Source: Terriglobus roseus
GTDB taxonomy: Bacteria; Acidobacteriota; Terriglobia; Terriglobales; Acidobacteriaceae
Direction: 5' to 3'
DNA: 64,000 nucleotides
Assembly: GCF_900105625.1 (NCBI RefSeq)
Contig: NZ_FNSD01000001.1
Span: 1,054,001-1,118,000, forward strand
Positions 31,806 through 42,779 of the stretch are shown one piece after another; within the stretch, counting starts at the first letter, position 1; every line of letters starts with the position of its first letter. The notes under the pieces were generated by a model. That model did no database searches. It was not told where the DNA came from and saw nothing but the letters and a program-made list of their open reading frames with translations. A program made the position numbers and the translations under genes.

Positions 31806-34800
31806 TTATTGGGCGCTCCCCACCACAAGCTTCCAGCTTTCGATCGTCAGCGCTGTGGTCAGTTGGCCGGTGCCGGCCGTGAAGCCATAGAAGGCGGTGT
31901 TGCCGCCAAGCATTGCTGGCAGATTGACCACCTTCGACCAGGTCGACGTCGCACCACTCTGCGGGTCCGTGAGGACTAAAGTGAGCGTTGTGCCGTCATA
32001 AACGATATCTGCCTTCACATGAAGCGCGTTGAGGATATTCACATTTGTGGGGACTGAGTACGTCGGATCTGTCAGCGAGACTCCAGCGGGGTAGAGTCCG
32101 GTCGAGTTTGCGCCTTCACCGTTGTTGTCAAAGAAATCAAACTTCAATGCAACGCTGTTCGGAATGAGGTAGAACCCAAGCTCGCCTCCGAAGTACCCTA
32201 TCGCGCTGGAGCTGGAACGCTGCAGCGCGAACGTGAAGCCATCCGCTGGCTCATTCCCCAGAGAATCATTGGTGAATGTGAACGTCGAATGGAAGCTATT
32301 GATGTCGAAAGGGCTGGGCGTCCAAACCGATGCTGCCTTGTTCTGAGCCGTAGGCACCGTCTGCACGTTCTGGGTCAGACTCAGCGCGGTACCGCCCTGG
32401 ATGTACGCTGTTCCGTTAAGCAATAGACCCACGTTCTCAAAGCGCGCTGCCGTGTCAATCGAGACCGTGCCCGGCTTGTAAGACCAGTTGAGTATCTCGA
32501 TCGTCGACGTAAGGCCGCCCGTAGCTCCGGTGAAGCCGACATAGGCTCGGTTCGCACCGATCGATCCGGGGATATCCATGACATTCCGATAGCTCGCGCT
32601 TGCGCCGGTTGCCATGTCAGTGAGCAGCAGATTCAACGTGTAACCGTCGTACGCCACGTCGGCGCGCATAATGTGTCCTGTCAGCAGGGACACACTCGAA
32701 GGCAACACCATCCCGGGACCGGTGAGCGTATTGCCCGCGGTGTAGACACCGATCGAGTTTGCACCTTCGCCCCTGTTATCGAAAAGGTCGAACTTCAGGG
32801 CCACGCTGCTCGGAATGAAGTTGTAGCCGAGTTCCCCGCCTGCGGATCCCAACGCCGTGGGTGCGGCGTTCTGAAAGGTCAGCGTGAAGCCGTCCGCTTC
32901 TGGATCGGTGATCTGGAAATCGAAGCTGGTAGTAAAGCTTCCCATGTAGAGCGGTTCCGGGCTCCATGCAGACCCTGCTTCGTACTGCTTGCCATCTGTC
33001 AGGCGAAGCTTGTTTCCGTTGAACGCCGCAGAGCCATTCAGGTGAAGACCCAGGGCGGGTGTGAAGCCGTCAGAGGAGGTGGATAGGATGTCTGACCGGA
33101 GGGTGACTGTGTTGCTTGTCAGGTTTGTGAGACCGTCCGGGCTATAGAGCGCGGAGAACACGTGCTGGCCGGCCCCCGGCAGCATCACGTTGGAGAGCGT
33201 TGCGGTGGCTGTGCTGGTCGCACTCGCGAGAAGGGTACTGGAGCCTGTGACAACGTCAAGCAGACCGTCGCTCTTCAGATCAGCAGAGGCTACCTCGCCG
33301 CCGCTCGAAGTGAGGGTGAACGGTCCAATGCTCGGATCCGCCGCGAATTTGCCACTTCCATCGCCGAAGAGGAAGAAGACCGTGCCAGGCCCGCTATATA
33401 CAGAGAAGTCCAGCTTGCCGTCCCCATTGAAATCACCGATCGCAAAGGCGGAGGGAGCATAACTTCCGGCAGTTACGTCCAAAGCTGGCTGGAAAGTACC
33501 ATCACCAACCCCCAGGTTGACAAAAAGCGCGGTGGTAGCCCCGGTTGGGCGGGCAGAGATCGTTGGAATATAGGCCAGATCTGTAACCCCGTCCCCGTTG
33601 AAGTCTGCCGGGATTATGTTGTCTGGATTCAGCCCGTCGTGGGGTACCGGCTTGAAGGGCTGGAAAGTGCGATCACCGTTGCTCAACAAAACCAGCAAAT
33701 TTGGCACGTTGTTGAAGGTCGATGCAACGATATCGTCGATTCCGTCGCCATTGAAATCCGCAGTCGCGAAGTTGCCGAAAGGAAATTGCGTATTGAGCGA
33801 ACCGGCTGAGAGAAAGGGCTGCCGGAACGTACCGTCGCCGTTGCCAAAAGCCAGGGACACACTTCCCCCAGAGAAGAAAGCGTAATCAGCATTTCCGTCG
33901 TGGTCATAGTCTCCCGTAATAGCAGCGGAGCTACCGTTCGGGAGCTGGGTCTGGGTGAAGGTCCCGTCCCCCTTGCCCAGGAGCAGAATATTCGACTCGA
34001 TCACATCGAAATTACCGTCCGCGTTGAAGTCAGCGACCATAGGACTTCCCGAATCGGACGTGAGTACAGCGACAGGAGCTTTGAATGTGCCGTCTCCGTT
34101 GCCGAGAGCCAGCGAGAGCACCTTGCTTGAACTGTTGCTGGAACTCTTAATCGAGAGCAGATCGGGTGCGCCGTCGTTATTGAAGTCGAAAAGGGAAAGA
34201 GATGTATTGGGAATTGGCGTGGTTCCCTGTACGTAGTTCAGATTCTGCGAAGGACCTGCGACCAGCGGCACGGTCCCAATGGCAGAGGGCGTAGGCCCGT
34301 TGGGCCCGTACAGGTCCTGGAAGGTGACGGATCCCGCAGGGATGGACAAGGTGTTTGCAGTGATCTTCGCAGTCAACGTGTACGGTGGCGTCTGATTCGC
34401 CGGATAGTCTTGTCGGGTCAAGCTGAACGCGTAGGTCGGAGGAACGCTGGGGTTCGAGGACGGCGTCACGGCCAGCATCTGGACGACAGACTGGCTCATA
34501 CTGCCCAGCCCTGTGAACCCTGCGAACTTCGCTGTCAGAGCGTGCGAACCTGCGCCGAAACGGGTACGGATCACCGCGCGTCCGACGGGGCCGGAGCCAT
34601 TGGTAATGATCTGGCCCGTACCGATAAGGCGTGCGCCGTCGTAGAAGCGCACCAGTCCACGTGGAATCGTGTTATTCGACGAATCGGTAACCTGCGCCGT
34701 CAGCGTCTCGGTTGTGCCCGCCGCAATGGTACCCGGCGAAGAGAGTGTGAAGATGGTCGTTGTTTGCGCCTTGCCCTGCACCGTGCAAGCGAAAGGCAGA

Positions 34801-34850
34801 ACGAAAGCGGGGAGGAGACAGCAAAGGAAAGCGGAAGACGTGCGTCGCAT
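31806..34850 (-). CDS. secreted FG-GAP propeller protein with two L-type lectin domains
   Basis: A 1,014-residue exported carbohydrate-binding protein. A signal peptide (MRRTSSAFLCCLLPAFVLPF, ending near QGKAQ) is followed by one or two Ig-like repeats (about 30-210: SSPGTIAAGTTETLTAQVTD). Seven FG-GAP/VCBS-type repeats run from about 220 to 525, recognisable by D-F-N-x-D-G-x-x-D loops (FDFNNDGAPD, ADFNADGNFD, GDYDHDGNAD, ADFNGDGIDD, ADFNGDGVTD, GDFNGDGKLD, ADLKSDGLLD). Seven such repeats would close a beta-propeller. Residues about 594-793 and 798-1006 are two related L-type (legume-like) lectin domains, each with a GFTLTFQ or GFTFALQ strand and a KFDxFDNxGEGANS metal-loop-like segment. There is no catalytic domain, so it is probably a surface or secreted glycan binder. 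Confidence 0.85.
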   Translation of the reverse strand: MRRTSSAFLCCLLPAFVLPFACTVQGKAQTTTIFTLSSPGTIAAGTTETLTAQVTDSSNNTIPRGLVRFYDGARLIGTGQIITNGSGPVGRAVIRTRFGAGSHALTAKFAGFTGLGSMSQSVVQMLAVTPSSNPSVPPTYAFSLTRQDYPANQTPPYTLTAKITANTLSIPAGSVTFQDLYGPNGPTPSAIGTVPLVAGPSQNLNYVQGTTPIPNTSLSLFDFNNDGAPDLLSIKSSSNSSSKVLSLALGNGDGTFKAPVAVLTSDSGSPMVADFNADGNFDVIESNILLLGKGDGTFTQTQLPNGSSAAITGDYDHDGNADYAFFSGGSVSLAFGNGDGTFRQPFLSAGSLNTQFPFGNFATADFNGDGIDDIVASTFNNVPNLLVLLSNGDRTFQPFKPVPHDGLNPDNIIPADFNGDGVTDLAYIPTISARPTGATTALFVNLGVGDGTFQPALDVTAGSYAPSAFAIGDFNGDGKLDFSVYSGPGTVFFLFGDGSGKFAADPSIGPFTLTSSGGEVASADLKSDGLLDVVTGSSTLLASATSTATATLSNVMLPGAGQHVFSALYSPDGLTNLTSNTVTLRSDILSTSSDGFTPALGLHLNGSAAFNGNKLRLTDGKQYEAGSAWSPEPLYMGSFTTSFDFQITDPEADGFTLTFQNAAPTALGSAGGELGYNFIPSSVALKFDLFDNRGEGANSIGVYTAGNTLTGPGMVLPSSVSLLTGHIMRADVAYDGYTLNLLLTDMATGASASYRNVMDIPGSIGANRAYVGFTGATGGLTSTIEILNWSYKPGTVSIDTAARFENVGLLLNGTAYIQGGTALSLTQNVQTVPTAQNKAASVWTPSPFDINSFHSTFTFTNDSLGNEPADGFTFALQRSSSSAIGYFGGELGFYLIPNSVALKFDFFDNNGEGANSTGLYPAGVSLTDPTYSVPTNVNILNALHVKADIVYDGTTLTLVLTDPQSGATSTWSKVVNLPAMLGGNTAFYGFTAGTGQLTTALTIESWKLVVGSAQ

Positions 34851-35343
34851 GAAGAGTCTTGATTCCAGGGGCAGTCGAAGAACAAAGTGGGATCGCCGAA
34901 TGGCGAGGTAACTTGACGTTAAGTAGGTAGATCGCATGGTCCTGAATCGTGCCGATCAGGATATATCCCAACGGCGCCAATTACATGAAGCAGGCAATTC
35001 CCTATTGCAGGGCAGCATAGTAATGAGATTAAAGTGTGTAAGCAAGAGTCGCCCCACTTGTTAATCGCAACCGGTTCGGAAGACGGTTACCCCTGATGAC
35101 TCGGGATGACTGCCTGAGCATATACACCCTTATGCCGAACGACAAATGGCGCGAAAATAAGTACCCACCTAAAGCACAGAGCTAACGGGTTACAGCAAGC
35201 GCCTCGCGGCTTCTGCAAAATCGGTTTTCGGAATACGTAATTAGCCATGGCGTAATGACCCTGCAACGCACGCTGGTTCAGCGCCGATCGTCGAACCAGC
35301 GATTGAGAAACGTAAAGTGGCGGTACAGGATTTGAGAAACGAA
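34851..35343. other. 493 bp intergenic region with one inverted repeat
   Basis: This is the divergent region between the lectin protein and the SGNH hydrolase; no gene is visible. It contains CGCTGGTTC (35271-35279) and GAACCAGCG (35293-35301), a perfect nine-base inverted repeat with a 13-base spacer ending about 40 bases before the hydrolase start. That position suits an operator or a leader hairpin. Confidence 0.45.
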
Positions 35344-36033
35344 ATGGGCTCTTGGGGAAAGCTATTACTGCTCTGTTTATTTGTCTCAAACACCGGGAGC
35401 GTATGGGCGGCAGTCGTTTGCAACGCGGGCTTTGCGGGTGAAAATAGCGCGCAGATCCTGATGCGACTGCCGCAGGCGCTCGCCGACTGCGGCGCACCCA
35501 CTGAAGTTGTGATCTTCGTCGGCATGAATGATGCCGTGAATGAAAAGCGCTTCCTTACGCCTTTGCAGACAGCGGAAGCCGTGCAGCAAATGCTGCAGGT
35601 GATCGGCGCAGCGCACGCAAAGGCGCTGGTCGTAACCGTACATGCGCCCGACGAGGTCCGGTTGATGCAGCGGCATTCCCCTGGCGCGTTCGGGGGGTTA
35701 ACCCCGGCAGAGCGTATCGACGCGACAAATCGTGCCCTACGGAAGGCAGCGCAGCGTGGCGGTGCAGACATCGTGGATTTCCATGCTGCACTCGCGCTTG
35801 CAGGCGGGGCCTCGACCAGTCAAAGTACGGATGGCGTTCACCTCACGCAGACGGGATATCGTCTGCTGGCCAAGACCGTCGCAGCAGCTTTACCTCGGGA
35901 GGTATCCGGCAGAGTTCTGTGCCTGGGAGACAGCCTCACCTTCGGTACGGGTGTTCGAGCGGCAGGTGAACCGGACGCGGGGTCCGAAAGCTATCCACAG
36001 CAGCTGAAGGCGATACTGAACGGCGCCTTGTGA
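35344..36033 (+). CDS. secreted SGNH/GDSL-type hydrolase with circularly permuted motif order
   Basis: Probable exported esterase or deacetylase. A signal peptide (MGSWGKLLLLCLFVSNTGSV, cut near WA) is followed directly by what is normally block II (NAGFAGENS, residues 27-35). Then come block III (GMND, 60-63) and block V (DGVH with Asp163 and His166), and only at the end block I, GDSL with nucleophile Ser197 (LCLGDSLTFGTGV), running to ESYPQQLKAIL. In ordinary SGNH hydrolases GDSL lies at the N-terminus and leads into NAGxxG. Joining this protein's C-terminus to its mature N-terminus would recreate the normal order. It has 229 residues and all four catalytic blocks are intact. It ends 22 bases before the membrane regulator at 36056, so the two are probably co-transcribed. 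Confidence 0.82.
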   Translation: MGSWGKLLLLCLFVSNTGSVWAAVVCNAGFAGENSAQILMRLPQALADCGAPTEVVIFVGMNDAVNEKRFLTPLQTAEAVQQMLQVIGAAHAKALVVTVHAPDEVRLMQRHSPGAFGGLTPAERIDATNRALRKAAQRGGADIVDFHAALALAGGASTSQSTDGVHLTQTGYRLLAKTVAAALPREVSGRVLCLGDSLTFGTGVRAAGEPDAGSESYPQQLKAILNGAL

Positions 36034-36055: not shown

Positions 36056-37357
36056 ATGCCGCGCATGGCTGTAATGCTGGTGCCCGCCGAGACTGAGCGA
36101 GAAACAGAACCAGGTGTGAAGGAGTCGCTTGCGCGGATGCTGGCGAGTCCTCAGTTCGCTCGCGCCGAGACTCAGCGTCGCCTGCTCCACTACCTATGGG
36201 AACGCCGGCACGACGCAATCAGTGAATATGCGATTGCCACGGAGGCGCTGGGGCGCAACAGCAACTTCGATTCGAACAGTGATGCCTCGGTCCGCGTACA
36301 GATCTCTCGCCTGCGACGGAAACTGAAGGACTACTACCTCGAGACAGGCGAAGCGGAACTGCTGGCGATACCCACGGGAACGCATCAGCTCACGGTGCTT
36401 GAACGTCAACCCCTCGAAGTGCCGGTCGAAGCGAGAGTGCTTCCTCCCCTTTCCGCTTCAGACTGGGTGCGTGCGCGTGTACTACCGTTGCTGGTCTGCC
36501 TGTGTCTCGTGCTGGCGGTCGCCCTCGGAACGACTTCGATCTTCCTTGTCCGGCAGATTCGAAAGTCACATGCGCTGGCGGCGCAGGCGCCGGCGACCCC
36601 AAATGCGTTCTGGCTGAGCTTCCTTGCTGGCGATGCGCCGATTCGGATCGTGCTGCCCACACCGGTGTTCTTCAACTTCAAGAACTATCCGTCGCTAAGA
36701 CTGCGCTCCACCGAGGTCAACGATTTCGGTGCGGCGGCGCAGAATCCGGAACTGAAGGCAGTCATCGCGAAGATGGGTCCGGTCGGACTCGAACAGTCTT
36801 ATACCGTAACCTGGGACACACTCGCGGCGATCCAAATCGCACGATACCTGGACCGCATCGGCGAAGGCAAGCGAGTGTCGTTTCAAGTGACACGGGACTC
36901 CTCGCTGCTGTCGCTGGAACAGGCCAACGTGATCGTGCTGGGCACCGACCACACACTGCAGCCCATGCACGAATACATGGAGAGCATGAATTTCACGCTG
37001 ATTCCAGGCGAAGAGCGTGTCCTGAACGCACGGCCTGAGGGAAACGAACCCAAGGCCTACGTACGCCAATTACAAGGTGAGGAGAGGCATATCGAACCCT
37101 CAATCATTGCGGTCATGCCGGGGCGAGCGCCGGGCCTGAAGGTACTGATGCTGGAGTCTCGCGATACCTCCGGCATGGTCTCCCTGCTGGCTTCGAACGC
37201 CGGTTCGCACGCCGTTGAAGAAATGTGGCGGGCACATGGCTCCCCGCAGTTCTTCGAAATGGTTGTGATGACCGAAATGGAAGTCCATACGCCGCTGCGT
37301 AGCTGGCCCGTCACCATGCACGCATATACCAAGGTGGCTCCCTCAAAGACCCTGTAA
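36056..37357 (+). CDS. membrane-anchored winged-helix regulator A
   Basis: A one-component transmembrane regulator with topology like CadC/ToxR. Residues about 22-115 form the cytoplasmic DNA-binding-like domain (ARMLASPQFARAETQRRLLH; YAIATEALGRNSNFDSNSD; VRVQISRLRRKLKDYY; LLAIPTGTHQLTV). One membrane helix spans 142-165. The C-terminal part (about 175-433) is extracytoplasmic and unassigned, with NVIVLGTDHTL near the middle. It shares layout and motifs with two other proteins here (44404-45762 and 59929-61155). It is preceded closely by the SGNH hydrolase and followed by a FAD oxidoreductase and receptor 4, which it may control. The start codon is uncertain (ATG at 36056, 36065 or 36074); no strong ribosome site is seen. 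Confidence 0.75.
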   Translation: MPRMAVMLVPAETERETEPGVKESLARMLASPQFARAETQRRLLHYLWERRHDAISEYAIATEALGRNSNFDSNSDASVRVQISRLRRKLKDYYLETGEAELLAIPTGTHQLTVLERQPLEVPVEARVLPPLSASDWVRARVLPLLVCLCLVLAVALGTTSIFLVRQIRKSHALAAQAPATPNAFWLSFLAGDAPIRIVLPTPVFFNFKNYPSLRLRSTEVNDFGAAAQNPELKAVIAKMGPVGLEQSYTVTWDTLAAIQIARYLDRIGEGKRVSFQVTRDSSLLSLEQANVIVLGTDHTLQPMHEYMESMNFTLIPGEERVLNARPEGNEPKAYVRQLQGEERHIEPSIIAVMPGRAPGLKVLMLESRDTSGMVSLLASNAGSHAVEEMWRAHGSPQFFEMVVMTEMEVHTPLRSWPVTMHAYTKVAPSKTL

Positions 37358-39070: not shown

Positions 39071-39115
39071 ACCGGTAACGTAACGTAACAGCTTGGAACT
39101 GGACTACCGTAGACT
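39071..39115 (+). promoter_or_regulatory. triple GTAAC repeat and weak -10 ahead of receptor 4
   Basis: Three head-to-tail GTAAC copies lie at 39075-39089, preceded by CCG. The 11-mer CCGGTAACGTA (39072-39082) recurs exactly at 59871-59881. A TAGACT resembling a -10 element lies at 39110-39115, with no good -35 between. That arrangement suits an activator-dependent promoter for receptor 4. Regulator A is the obvious candidate activator; this is inference. Confidence 0.45.
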
Positions 39116-39191
39116 CACCCCGCACACTCGCCTGTCGAAAGCCGGAAGTGTTCCCATCCGTTACGAACGCTTCCGGCTCTTTGAGGCCACC

Positions 39192-42100
39192 ATGAACCAT
39201 TTTGCAGTCCGCAGATCTTTCCGACACCTATTTCTCTGCTTGACCATGCTCCTGGCCGCTCTTCCGCGCGGCAGTGCACAGGTCGCCAACGGATCCATCA
39301 CGGGCCGGCTGACCGACAGCACCACAGCCGTGGTACCAGACGCAGACGTGACCCTCACGAGGACGGAGACTGGCCTCGTTCTCCATGGCAAGGCCAACGG
39401 CGATGGCATCTACACCTTCCCCGGTCTGCAGACCGGAACCTACCGCGTCACGGTCGCGCAGGCAGGCTTTAAGAAGGCCGAATCCACTGTGACGCTCGCC
39501 GTCGGCCAGGCCGCCCAGATCGACCTGACACTCGCAATTGGCAGCAGTACCGAAACGGTGACCGTGCAGGCCGCGGCAGGCGAGCAGCTCAACACTGACA
39601 ACTCGACGCTGAGCTACACGGTAGGCGCCCGCCAGGTCAGCGAGCTTCCCCTCAACGGCCGCAACCCCTACGCGCTGGCGCAACTGAGCCCGGGCATCAA
39701 TCCCGGCGGCAGCTTCGGTACCGGTGTCAGCACAACACGCGGAGCACTGGTCGCCGCAGCTACGAACAACTTCTCATCGAACGGCGGTGTGTCCGGCAAC
39801 AACGAGATTCTGATCGACGGCATCTCGGTCACACTCTGCTGCCAGGGCCAGCCAGCCCTGACGCCCAGCGCGGAAGTCGTCGATCAATTCAAGGTCATCA
39901 CTTCAAACCCCGGTGCGCAGTTTGGCCGGTCCAGCGGCGGCTTCCTGAACATCGTGACGAAGAGCGGCGCAAATCGGATTCACGGAACCCTGTATGACTT
40001 CCTTCGCAACGACAAGCTGGACGCTGCGAATTTCTTCCAGAAGCGCTCCGGCATCTATCCGCTTGCCAATCATGCGGACTTCCGATTCCCGCATCGTTAT
40101 AACCAGTTCGGAGGCTTCGTCAGCGGCCCCGTCTTCATCCCGAAAATCTACAACGGCAAGGACAAGACCTTCTTCACCTTCGGGTATGAAGGCCAGCGGA
40201 ATCTTACGTACGCTGCGCAGATCCTTACTGTGCCGACCGCGCTGATGCGCAAAGGTATCTTCACGGAGAACGGCGCCAACCTGGTCTATGACCCGTACAG
40301 CACCACGCAGGTGGGCAACAACTACAACCGCACACCGCTGCCCGCAGGCTGTAACGCCAACGGCTGCTTTGGCACGGGCCAGGGCGTGACCACGCTGAAC
40401 CCTCTCGCGGTAAAGCTGCTATCGCTCTATCCTCTGCCGAACGGTCCGGGACTGACGAACAATTACACTTTTGCGCAGCCAACCTCGGATGTGGACGACC
40501 AGTACAACTTCCGCATCGACCATAACTTCTCCGCGGCAAATCGCATGTTTCTCCGCGGCACTCGCGGCACGAACTCGCACAATGAAAACGACCTGCTCAA
40601 CGGCGCGTTCAGCGGAACGAACAGCATTCACCAGGTTATCTCCGGCTACCTGTTCGCTGCCAGTGATAGCTGGACCATTTCGCCTTCCATGCTGCTGCAG
40701 GTTACCTACGGCTTTGCTGCGCAACGGAACATCCAGCTGCCTGGCAACTACACTGTCCCCGCAGGCACGTTTGGCTTCTCCTCCAACTTCCAATCGGAAC
40801 AACAGACCACAGGCACGCCGGTCGTCAGCGTCAGCGGCTTTCAGCAGATCGGCAATGCCACAAACTCGAATCAGTGGAGCCATTACACGCACAGCCTTGT
40901 GCCGTTCCTGGTGTGGCAACTTGGAAAACACAGCATGACGATCGGCTATGAAGGCCGCCTGATCAACGAGATGGAACAGGGCTACGGAAATCCCCTGGGC
41001 AACCTGACGTTTGACTCCACGCTGACGCGCGGTGCGAATGCTGCAAACGGTGTCTCGGGCAACCCGGCACAGTTCGATACGATTGCCGCGCTGCTCCTGG
41101 GCGTGCCGACAAACACTACGCTGCAGCGGCAGGCGACGCTTGCGTTGCAGCAGTGGTATCACGCGATCTACGCGCAGGATGACTGGCGCATTCGCAACAA
41201 CCTCACGCTGAACCTTGGTCTACGCTACGACCGCGATCAGGCGTTCACAGACCGTCACAATGCGTGGGCGGCGCTGAACCTGCAAGCTGCCAATCCGTTG
41301 TCTACAACGGCGCTACCCTTCACCGGCGGTGCGCAGTACGTCGGAGCCAACGGCAATCCCCGCAACTTCTGGAATAACTACAACAAGTTCGGGCCGCGCA
41401 TCGGCTTTGCCTATACTCCGAATCCCACGACCGTTGTGCGCGGAGGTTTCGACGTGCTGTATCTGCCGTCGACGCAGCGCATCTACGGTGGCACCGCAAT
41501 TGGCTACTCGCAGACCACGCAGCAGACCTACACCTACACACAGCGTCCCACCACGCTGATCGACAATCCTCTGCCCTCGGGCGTCCTTCTGCCCGCAGGT
41601 TCTGCGGCAGGCGTGCAGGTCGGCACCGGCAGCAGCGTCTCCGGCCTGCTCTACAAGAACCCGCAGCCGTACTACTCTCAGTGGAACATCGGTGTCGAGC
41701 AGCAGATCAACAGCGGTATCGTGCTGCACCTGAACTATGCCGGCAGCAAGGGAACACACCTGCCCATCGGCTATCGACCGAACGATCTGCAGCCGCGCTA
41801 TTGGGGTGCTGTTGGCGATCCCGGTAATGCGCAGTCGGCCTACCTTACCGCGCTTGTTCCGAACCCGCTCTTCGGTCAACCGGGCGTGAGTGGGACATTG
41901 GCAACGCCGACCGTGCAGCGGCAGCAGTTGCTCGCGGCCTACCCGCAGTACGGCCCAAACACCGGGCTGTCCAACGGTTCGCTCAACGTCCTACAGGACG
42001 ACATCGCATCGTCCACCTATCATGCCTTCCAGGCCTTCGTGACGATGCGTACGTCGAACCTGTCCGCCATCGTCAGCTACACCTGGTCTAAGCTGCTTGG

Positions 42101-42779
42101 TAACACGACGGATATCACCACCGGTGGCTTCAATGCCAATGGCCAACCAGGCGTGCAGAACTTCTACCGCTATGACCTTGAGCGCTCCGTGCAGCCCACG
42201 GACATCCCGCAACGCATCGTCGGCAACCTGAACTACACACTCCCCTTCGGCCATGGTCAGAAGTTTGGCGCCAACCTTCCCGGATGGGCCAACCAGGCTG
42301 TTGGTGGATGGAAGTTAAACTTCATAGGTTTCATTCAAAGCGGATACGCGCTGGGCATTACGCAAACAGGTGGTGCGGCGTACTCAGGCGGTCGGCCAAG
42401 CTTCGTCCCTGGTATCAATCCGCTGACATCGGGTGGCATTCACCAGAGACTCGGCGGCGGAGCAGCCTTGGGACAGACGCAGGGCTTCTTCAATCCGGCC
42501 GCATTCCGACTGTCGCAGGCATTTGAACTCGGCAACGTGCCGCGCTCCTCCGGCCTGATGCGCGGACCACGCGGCTTCCAGGACGACATCTCGGCGATCA
42601 AGGATTTCCCAATCCACGATACGGTTGCACTGCAGTTCCGGCTGGAAGCCTTCAATCTACTGAACCGCGTGCAGTTTGGTCTGCCAAACCAGCAATTCAA
42701 CTCCGCGACATTCGGACAGATTACTTCCCAGTACAACTTGCCTCGTAACGTGCAGGTTGCACTGAAACTGAACTTTTAG
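39192..42779 (+). CDS. Oar-like TonB-dependent receptor 4
   Basis: A 1,195-residue outer-membrane receptor. The ATG at 39192 has GAGG eight bases upstream; the frame is open to 39093, but those codons are not protein-like. The signal peptide ends near PRGSAQ. The regulatory-like domain (GSITGRLTDSTTAVVPDADV; LQTGTYRVTVAQAGF) precedes a plug with LPLNGRNPYALAQLSPGI, the Cys-containing ISVTLCCQGQPAL, and QFKVITSNPGAQFGRSSGG. The barrel ends VQVALKLNF. A terminator follows at once. It is the last gene of a module with the SGNH hydrolase, regulator A and the FAD oxidoreductase. Confidence 0.93.
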   Translation: MNHFAVRRSFRHLFLCLTMLLAALPRGSAQVANGSITGRLTDSTTAVVPDADVTLTRTETGLVLHGKANGDGIYTFPGLQTGTYRVTVAQAGFKKAESTVTLAVGQAAQIDLTLAIGSSTETVTVQAAAGEQLNTDNSTLSYTVGARQVSELPLNGRNPYALAQLSPGINPGGSFGTGVSTTRGALVAAATNNFSSNGGVSGNNEILIDGISVTLCCQGQPALTPSAEVVDQFKVITSNPGAQFGRSSGGFLNIVTKSGANRIHGTLYDFLRNDKLDAANFFQKRSGIYPLANHADFRFPHRYNQFGGFVSGPVFIPKIYNGKDKTFFTFGYEGQRNLTYAAQILTVPTALMRKGIFTENGANLVYDPYSTTQVGNNYNRTPLPAGCNANGCFGTGQGVTTLNPLAVKLLSLYPLPNGPGLTNNYTFAQPTSDVDDQYNFRIDHNFSAANRMFLRGTRGTNSHNENDLLNGAFSGTNSIHQVISGYLFAASDSWTISPSMLLQVTYGFAAQRNIQLPGNYTVPAGTFGFSSNFQSEQQTTGTPVVSVSGFQQIGNATNSNQWSHYTHSLVPFLVWQLGKHSMTIGYEGRLINEMEQGYGNPLGNLTFDSTLTRGANAANGVSGNPAQFDTIAALLLGVPTNTTLQRQATLALQQWYHAIYAQDDWRIRNNLTLNLGLRYDRDQAFTDRHNAWAALNLQAANPLSTTALPFTGGAQYVGANGNPRNFWNNYNKFGPRIGFAYTPNPTTVVRGGFDVLYLPSTQRIYGGTAIGYSQTTQQTYTYTQRPTTLIDNPLPSGVLLPAGSAAGVQVGTGSSVSGLLYKNPQPYYSQWNIGVEQQINSGIVLHLNYAGSKGTHLPIGYRPNDLQPRYWGAVGDPGNAQSAYLTALVPNPLFGQPGVSGTLATPTVQRQQLLAAYPQYGPNTGLSNGSLNVLQDDIASSTYHAFQAFVTMRTSNLSAIVSYTWSKLLGNTTDITTGGFNANGQPGVQNFYRYDLERSVQPTDIPQRIVGNLNYTLPFGHGQKFGANLPGWANQAVGGWKLNFIGFIQSGYALGITQTGGAAYSGGRPSFVPGINPLTSGGIHQRLGGGAALGQTQGFFNPAAFRLSQAFELGNVPRSSGLMRGPRGFQDDISAIKDFPIHDTVALQFRLEAFNLLNRVQFGLPNQQFNSATFGQITSQYNLPRNVQVALKLNF

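Follow-up and report, generated by a model that had tools for sequence, protein, structure and literature searches.

A circularly permuted SGNH/GDSL protein of Terriglobus roseus and its relatives in a second bacterial phylum

SGNH hydrolases rank among the commonest esterases, and their conserved sequence blocks normally follow one another as I-II-III-V. In the stretch of 64,000 nucleotides analysed here (the window), which belongs to the soil bacterium Terriglobus roseus, an ORF of 229 amino acids plus stop codon (35344..36033, forward strand) presents these blocks in the order II-III-V-I, and the question is whether it represents a broken gene or an intact enzyme with a rearranged chain. 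Since this permuted protein is encoded by members of two bacterial phyla, often as a neighbour of enzymes that break down sugars or in one polypeptide with them, the gene belongs to a real, apparently undescribed enzyme family and is not a broken gene. We consider it likely that the product is an intact, secreted, circularly permuted SGNH hydrolase, which would remove O-acetyl or other small acyl groups from a polysaccharide. As for the family as a whole, the balance tips slightly towards an old and undescribed SGNH lineage that was opened at the alpha-1/beta-2 loop, spread over at least two phyla and became built into glycan-degrading multidomain enzymes.

Block order and rotation of the sequence

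The ORF, which like all features described in this paragraph lies on the forward strand, begins with a probable signal peptide (MGSWGKLLLLCLFVSNTGSVWA, residues 1-22, 35344..35409), a hydrophobic stretch with an A-x-A-like end that directly precedes strand beta-2; an in-frame GTG at 35317 is an alternative start, which would add nine residues. It is followed by block II (NAGFAGENS, residues 27-35, 35422..35448) with the oxyanion-hole residue Gly32, block III (GMND, residues 60-63, 35521..35532) with the oxyanion-hole residue Asn62, and block V (DGVH, residues 163-166, 35830..35841) with the catalytic Asp163 and His166. Only then come beta-1 (residues 190-195, 35911..35928), the N-terminal strand of the usual fold, and block I (GDSLT, residues 195-199, with GDSL at 195-198; 35926..35940), whose nucleophile Ser197 follows the His of block V at a distance of 31 residues. 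The stop codon lies only four residues past helix alpha-1 (residues 213-225, 35980..36018), which usually leads into block II. The order and coordinates of the blocks given in a preliminary description of this DNA proved to be exact, and its remark that all four catalytic blocks are retained is borne out by the invariance of the catalytic residues in all 46 proteins discussed below.

When compared with Pfam PF13472 (cut-off 32.9 bits), the native window protein is matched in two stretches, the best of which aligns residues 24-174 with profile positions 35-178 at 73.9 bits. Profile tools display an ordinary partial GDSL match without block I, and members of the family risk being taken for truncated or inactive proteins. 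In a search proposed in the preliminary description, the rotated sequence yielded one complete match in place of the split one, covering profile positions 1-178 of 178 at 87.1 bits. An HMM of canonical-order SGNH proteins is likewise matched by the native sequence in pieces (34-188, then 2-31). The C-terminus of the protein falls at about position 31 of this HMM and the N-terminus at about position 34, so that nearly nothing is missing at the junction, and the expectation that end-to-start joining would restore the usual order was confirmed. Among 208 rotations scored with the canonical HMM, the maximum (122.0 bits, native 88.0) was obtained with the cut immediately ahead of the block I strand, and none of 500 shufflings of the C-terminal segment (last 40 residues) matched the real rotated score (mean 89.6, maximum 96.0). 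As this HMM was built partly from sequences fetched by a GDSL-containing pattern, the Pfam result serves as the independent test. The optimal cut lies just ahead of beta-1 in 17 of 17 Acidobacteriota proteins, with a gain of ∼24-36 bits over the native order, and before block I in all 29 proteins tested from the phylum that contains the Lentisphaerae. Judged from its sequence, the window protein is a permuted variant of the SGNH/GDSL hydrolase superfamily; apart from the rotation scans, the circular permutation originally proposed is supported by the orthologs, the invariant catalytic residues, the selection and the structure models presented below.

Members in two phyla

Within the Acidobacteriota, the permuted gene was found once per genome in 11 of 19 genomes of the Terriglobus group and in 6 of 62 of the sister genus. 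The 16 further proteins share the block order of the window protein, their ends agree within a few residues, and the 17 members form a single clade (97/99 in the first tree, 100/100 in the tree with all 46 proteins). The region of block I is the best-conserved part of the molecule: its mean pairwise identity is 65%, whereas blocks II-V reach 51% and the signal region 27%. Its dN/dS ranges from 0 to 0.24 in the close pairs where it could be estimated, and the region is under purifying selection.

An unexpected full-length permuted match (E 2.8e-46) was encountered in Lentisphaerae bacterium RIFOXYA12_64_32 (genome of L007). A search of 388 genomes of the same phylum revealed 38 with matches, mostly full-length (E down to 1e-51), a single genome holding as many as four. 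Of the 30 loci read, 29 carry both pieces in permuted order. In the remaining locus (L158), a TAG codon interrupts the frame between blocks V and I. In the ortholog comparison suggested in the preliminary description, the permuted order is retained in 17 Acidobacteriota and 29 second-phylum proteins, and the canonical order I-II-III-V is absent from every one of them. Gly32, Asn62, Asp163, His166 and Ser197 are invariant across all 46, as are Cys193, Thr199, Tyr217, Pro218 and Leu221. Cys193 (35920-35922) is situated two residues ahead of GDSL. A few second-phylum members (e.g. L175, L176, L179) seemingly lack a signal peptide, hence not every member works extracellularly. In three others (L183, L186, L187), ∼350 to 1,300 residues with no Pfam match stand ahead of the permuted domain.

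Related enzymes, gene neighbours and probable activity

The canonical PF13472 proteins, such as the Enterococcus lipase/acylhydrolase 1YZF, E. coli TesA (1IVN) and yeast isoamyl acetate esterase (3MIL), share with the permuted family the blocks, the catalytic residues and the fold over residues 18-188, but in these proteins beta-1, the nucleophile and alpha-1 are found at the N-terminal end of the domain, whereas in the permuted family they are C-terminal. The same fold and catalytic residues, again in canonical order, are seen in the SGNH carbohydrate acetylesterases AlAXEase (7DDY), Axe2 (3W7V) and the Bacteroides sialate O-acetylesterase 6NJC, where the likeness would extend to the activity and glycan context proposed for the permuted enzyme.

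The glycan-enzyme fusions and neighbouring genes point to carbohydrate work. In some genomes of the second phylum, the permuted domain forms one protein with DUF6259, GH30C and CBM_4_9, with a GH36 melibiase and NPCBM, or with CBM_4_9, and the permuted gene is adjoined by genes for GH38, a sulfatase or a PF12831 oxidoreductase. Fusion to glycoside hydrolases and carbohydrate-binding domains is typical of degradation. In the window, the permuted gene is followed on the same strand, at a distance of 22 bp, by a gene for a winged-helix regulator with a membrane segment (F2, Trans_reg_C, 36056..37357), and then by those for an FAD-dependent oxidoreductase (F3, PF12831, 37420..39054) and a TonB-dependent outer-membrane receptor (F1, PF25183 with CarboxypepD_reg, 39093..42779, true start perhaps the ATG at 39192). 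This set, as far as the contig extends, adjoins the permuted gene in 13 of 17 genomes and is located at a different place in the remaining four. The regulator was detected in 17/17 genomes with the permuted gene and in 0/64 without it (Terriglobus and its sister genus; thresholds E 1e-50 and 1e-100), one of the 17 copies being cut by a contig end and the counts being non-independent, as the genomes are related.

Considering these sequence data, the members of the family are probably active carbohydrate esterases, and the window protein would be a secreted O-acetylesterase. The fusions and neighbours suggest that it would most likely remove O-acetyl or other small acyl groups from polysaccharides of plant or microbial origin. 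As part of glycan uptake, it would cleave them in the periplasm or extracellularly, acting in one process with the regulator, the FAD oxidoreductase and the TonB receptor, which are inherited together with its gene. Two further neighbours may be mentioned. Upstream of the permuted gene in the window, in divergent orientation, a gene (31806-34937, reverse strand) encodes a secreted protein of 1043 amino acids with Big_3_5, several FG-GAP repeats and two legume-type lectin domains. In one other genome, genes for a sulfatase and a formylglycine-generating enzyme (L057:4535-6946) are located directly upstream of the permuted gene.

Circular permutation has been described for AlgX and AlgJ (H-S-G-Y), in which Tyr replaces the block III Asn (PMC4148444), and PatB1 (PMC9487903, a review) and WssI (PMC10302187) have been added to the permuted SGNH proteins; all of those described are O-acetyltransferases (PMC4148444, PMC9487903, PMC10302187). 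AlgX, AlgJ and WssI (ALGX, PF16822) and PatB1 (DHHW family) resemble the window family in being exported, polysaccharide-acting proteins with a permuted SGNH-like fold. However, they follow the order V-I-II-III (H-S-G-Y or similar), opened between blocks III and V, whereas the chain of the window family is opened between I and II; they also show GTSYS or KDS in block I, DxH in block V and a replaced block III Asn (PMC4148444, PMC9487903, PMC10302187). Unlike AlgX and AlgJ, the permuted family retains GDSL/GDSI, GxND and a DGVH-type DxxH. Against the Pfam ALGX model, the window protein scores 15.0 bits, below the gathering score of 26.5; the best ALGX score among the matches listed for permuted members is 20.6, and the matches stop short of block I. 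One member, listed by its E-value only, stands at E 1.7e-5. Because of the position of the cut and the retained canonical motifs, along with the sub-threshold score, membership in the AlgX family was rejected.

Even so, the precedent of these transferases raises the possibility that the window protein acts like AlgX, AlgJ or an SGNH partner of AT3 and adds acetyl to a polysaccharide instead of removing it. In one genome, the permuted gene is immediately followed by a gene for an Acyl_transf_3 membrane acyltransferase (L050:7264-8478), a possible acyl-transfer partner, and some members display weak, sub-threshold similarity to the Pfam ALGX and SGNH (AT3-fused) models. On the other hand, the canonical esterase blocks including the block III Asn are intact in 46/46 proteins, the other loci with annotated neighbours revealed no MBOAT/AT3 gene, the fusion partners are glycoside hydrolases and carbohydrate-binding domains, and the ALGX scores listed are all under the cut-off, which makes a transferase seem rather unlikely.

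The preliminary description had noted that no family with this block order was known. This holds for the order itself, as no description of II-III-V-I appeared in the literature searched on permuted SGNH/GDSL proteins, a search that lay mostly outside subscription journals; the permuted SGNH fold as such, however, was already known from AlgX, AlgJ, PatB1 and WssI. Should the view of an old, undescribed lineage spread over at least two phyla be correct, the permuted proteins would make up a carbohydrate-esterase family of their own and a natural test of the effect of permutation on folding order and active-site access. The described permuted forms open elsewhere and have altered motifs, so that in them chain order is confounded with the loss of the oxyanion Asn. 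Since every canonical block is retained in the window family, it offers a direct test of how chain order by itself influences folding, access of the substrate and fusion to other domains.

Predicted fold and origin of the permutation

AlphaFold modelling with 20 rows (window protein, L005 and canonical fragments) resulted in a pLDDT of 82.1 and a pTM of 0.81; with two rows only (window protein and L005, no canonical fragments), the values were 69.5 and 0.71. Both models contain a strand at residues 190-194/195 and a helix up to residue 225, which correspond to the expected beta-1 and alpha-1. The signal-peptide region (residues 1-20) is predicted with low confidence, and the loop 199-208 past the nucleophile has a pLDDT below 50 in the 20-row model. 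Residues ∼18-188 of the model match solved SGNH enzymes with Z 12-17 (up to 16.9) over about 150-170 residues, Z being 14-17 for esterases that include the acetylxylan esterases 7ddy and Axe2; structure searches align in chain order, so that the match covers this part, and block I is placed by predicted secondary structure only. In the SGNH sheet, beta-1 is the sole neighbour of beta-2. As beta-2 is predicted as a strand, pairing of the two is implied, and according to the models the window protein has the alpha/beta/alpha SGNH fold.

In such a molecule, the old N- and C-termini would be joined via a short linker, the block V helix leading through about eight residues into beta-1, and the new termini would be opened within the loop between alpha-1 and beta-2. 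After removal of the signal peptide, the mature protein would start with beta-2, while the C-terminal beta-1 (with Ser197) and alpha-1 would pack back into the middle of the sheet. We infer that this packing would give the usual Ser197-His166-Asp163 triad and Gly32/Asn62 oxyanion hole, and with them serine-esterase chemistry. The nucleophile is carried on the last 40 residues of the chain, which could also swap, block I of one chain completing the active site of the next in a dimer or oligomer whose assembly would be needed for activity. Yet the linker from the block V helix to beta-1 has only about eight residues and the end-to-start joining is seamless, as is expected of single-chain closure, and the monomer models reach a pTM of 0.71-0.81; a swap seems quite improbable. 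It seems harder still to believe that the fold has been kept for a binding or structural role, because the five catalytic positions are invariant in 46/46 proteins and few other positions are so.

With regard to the origin of the closed, single-chain enzyme favoured here, duplication followed by trimming is the usual route to circular permutation, and a tandem duplication that was subsequently trimmed is a possible source of the permuted SGNH gene. The genome of the window itself contains one ORF of 514 amino acids with two tandem canonical SGNH matches (L072/L073, G000:C1:4106598-4107845), an arrangement of the type that could give rise to such a permutation. A relic in decay, which the preliminary description had offered as an alternative, or one half of a two-domain SGNH protein that a frameshift has split would suit the same route and the same tandem ORF, but can be practically dismissed, since the order is common to 46 proteins in two phyla under purifying selection and no remnant SGNH domain lies around any of the 17 Acidobacteriota loci. 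A six-frame search of these neighbourhoods detected no second SGNH piece near the gene; the sole other SGNH gene is a separate, complete canonical one, 6 kb away in L057.

A search of 300 genomes from the same bacterial family, with an E-value limit of 1e-27, gave no close ortholog of canonical order that might represent the immediate ancestor. In a tree of permuted and canonical proteins, a canonical clade is placed weakly inside the permuted members (81/51), and all permuted proteins form one clade in 13% of the bootstrap trees. An origin from phages or plasmids was rejected as well: their matches cover the II-V part of SGNH proteins, with no permuted member among them. Canonical-order proteins of IMG/VR viral contigs (L077-L097) possess a block I (ILCLGDSLTYGARDxYGRSYPAELGKIL) which strikingly resembles its counterpart in the permuted family, down to the Cys ahead of GDS, although the pattern used to fetch them includes this motif.
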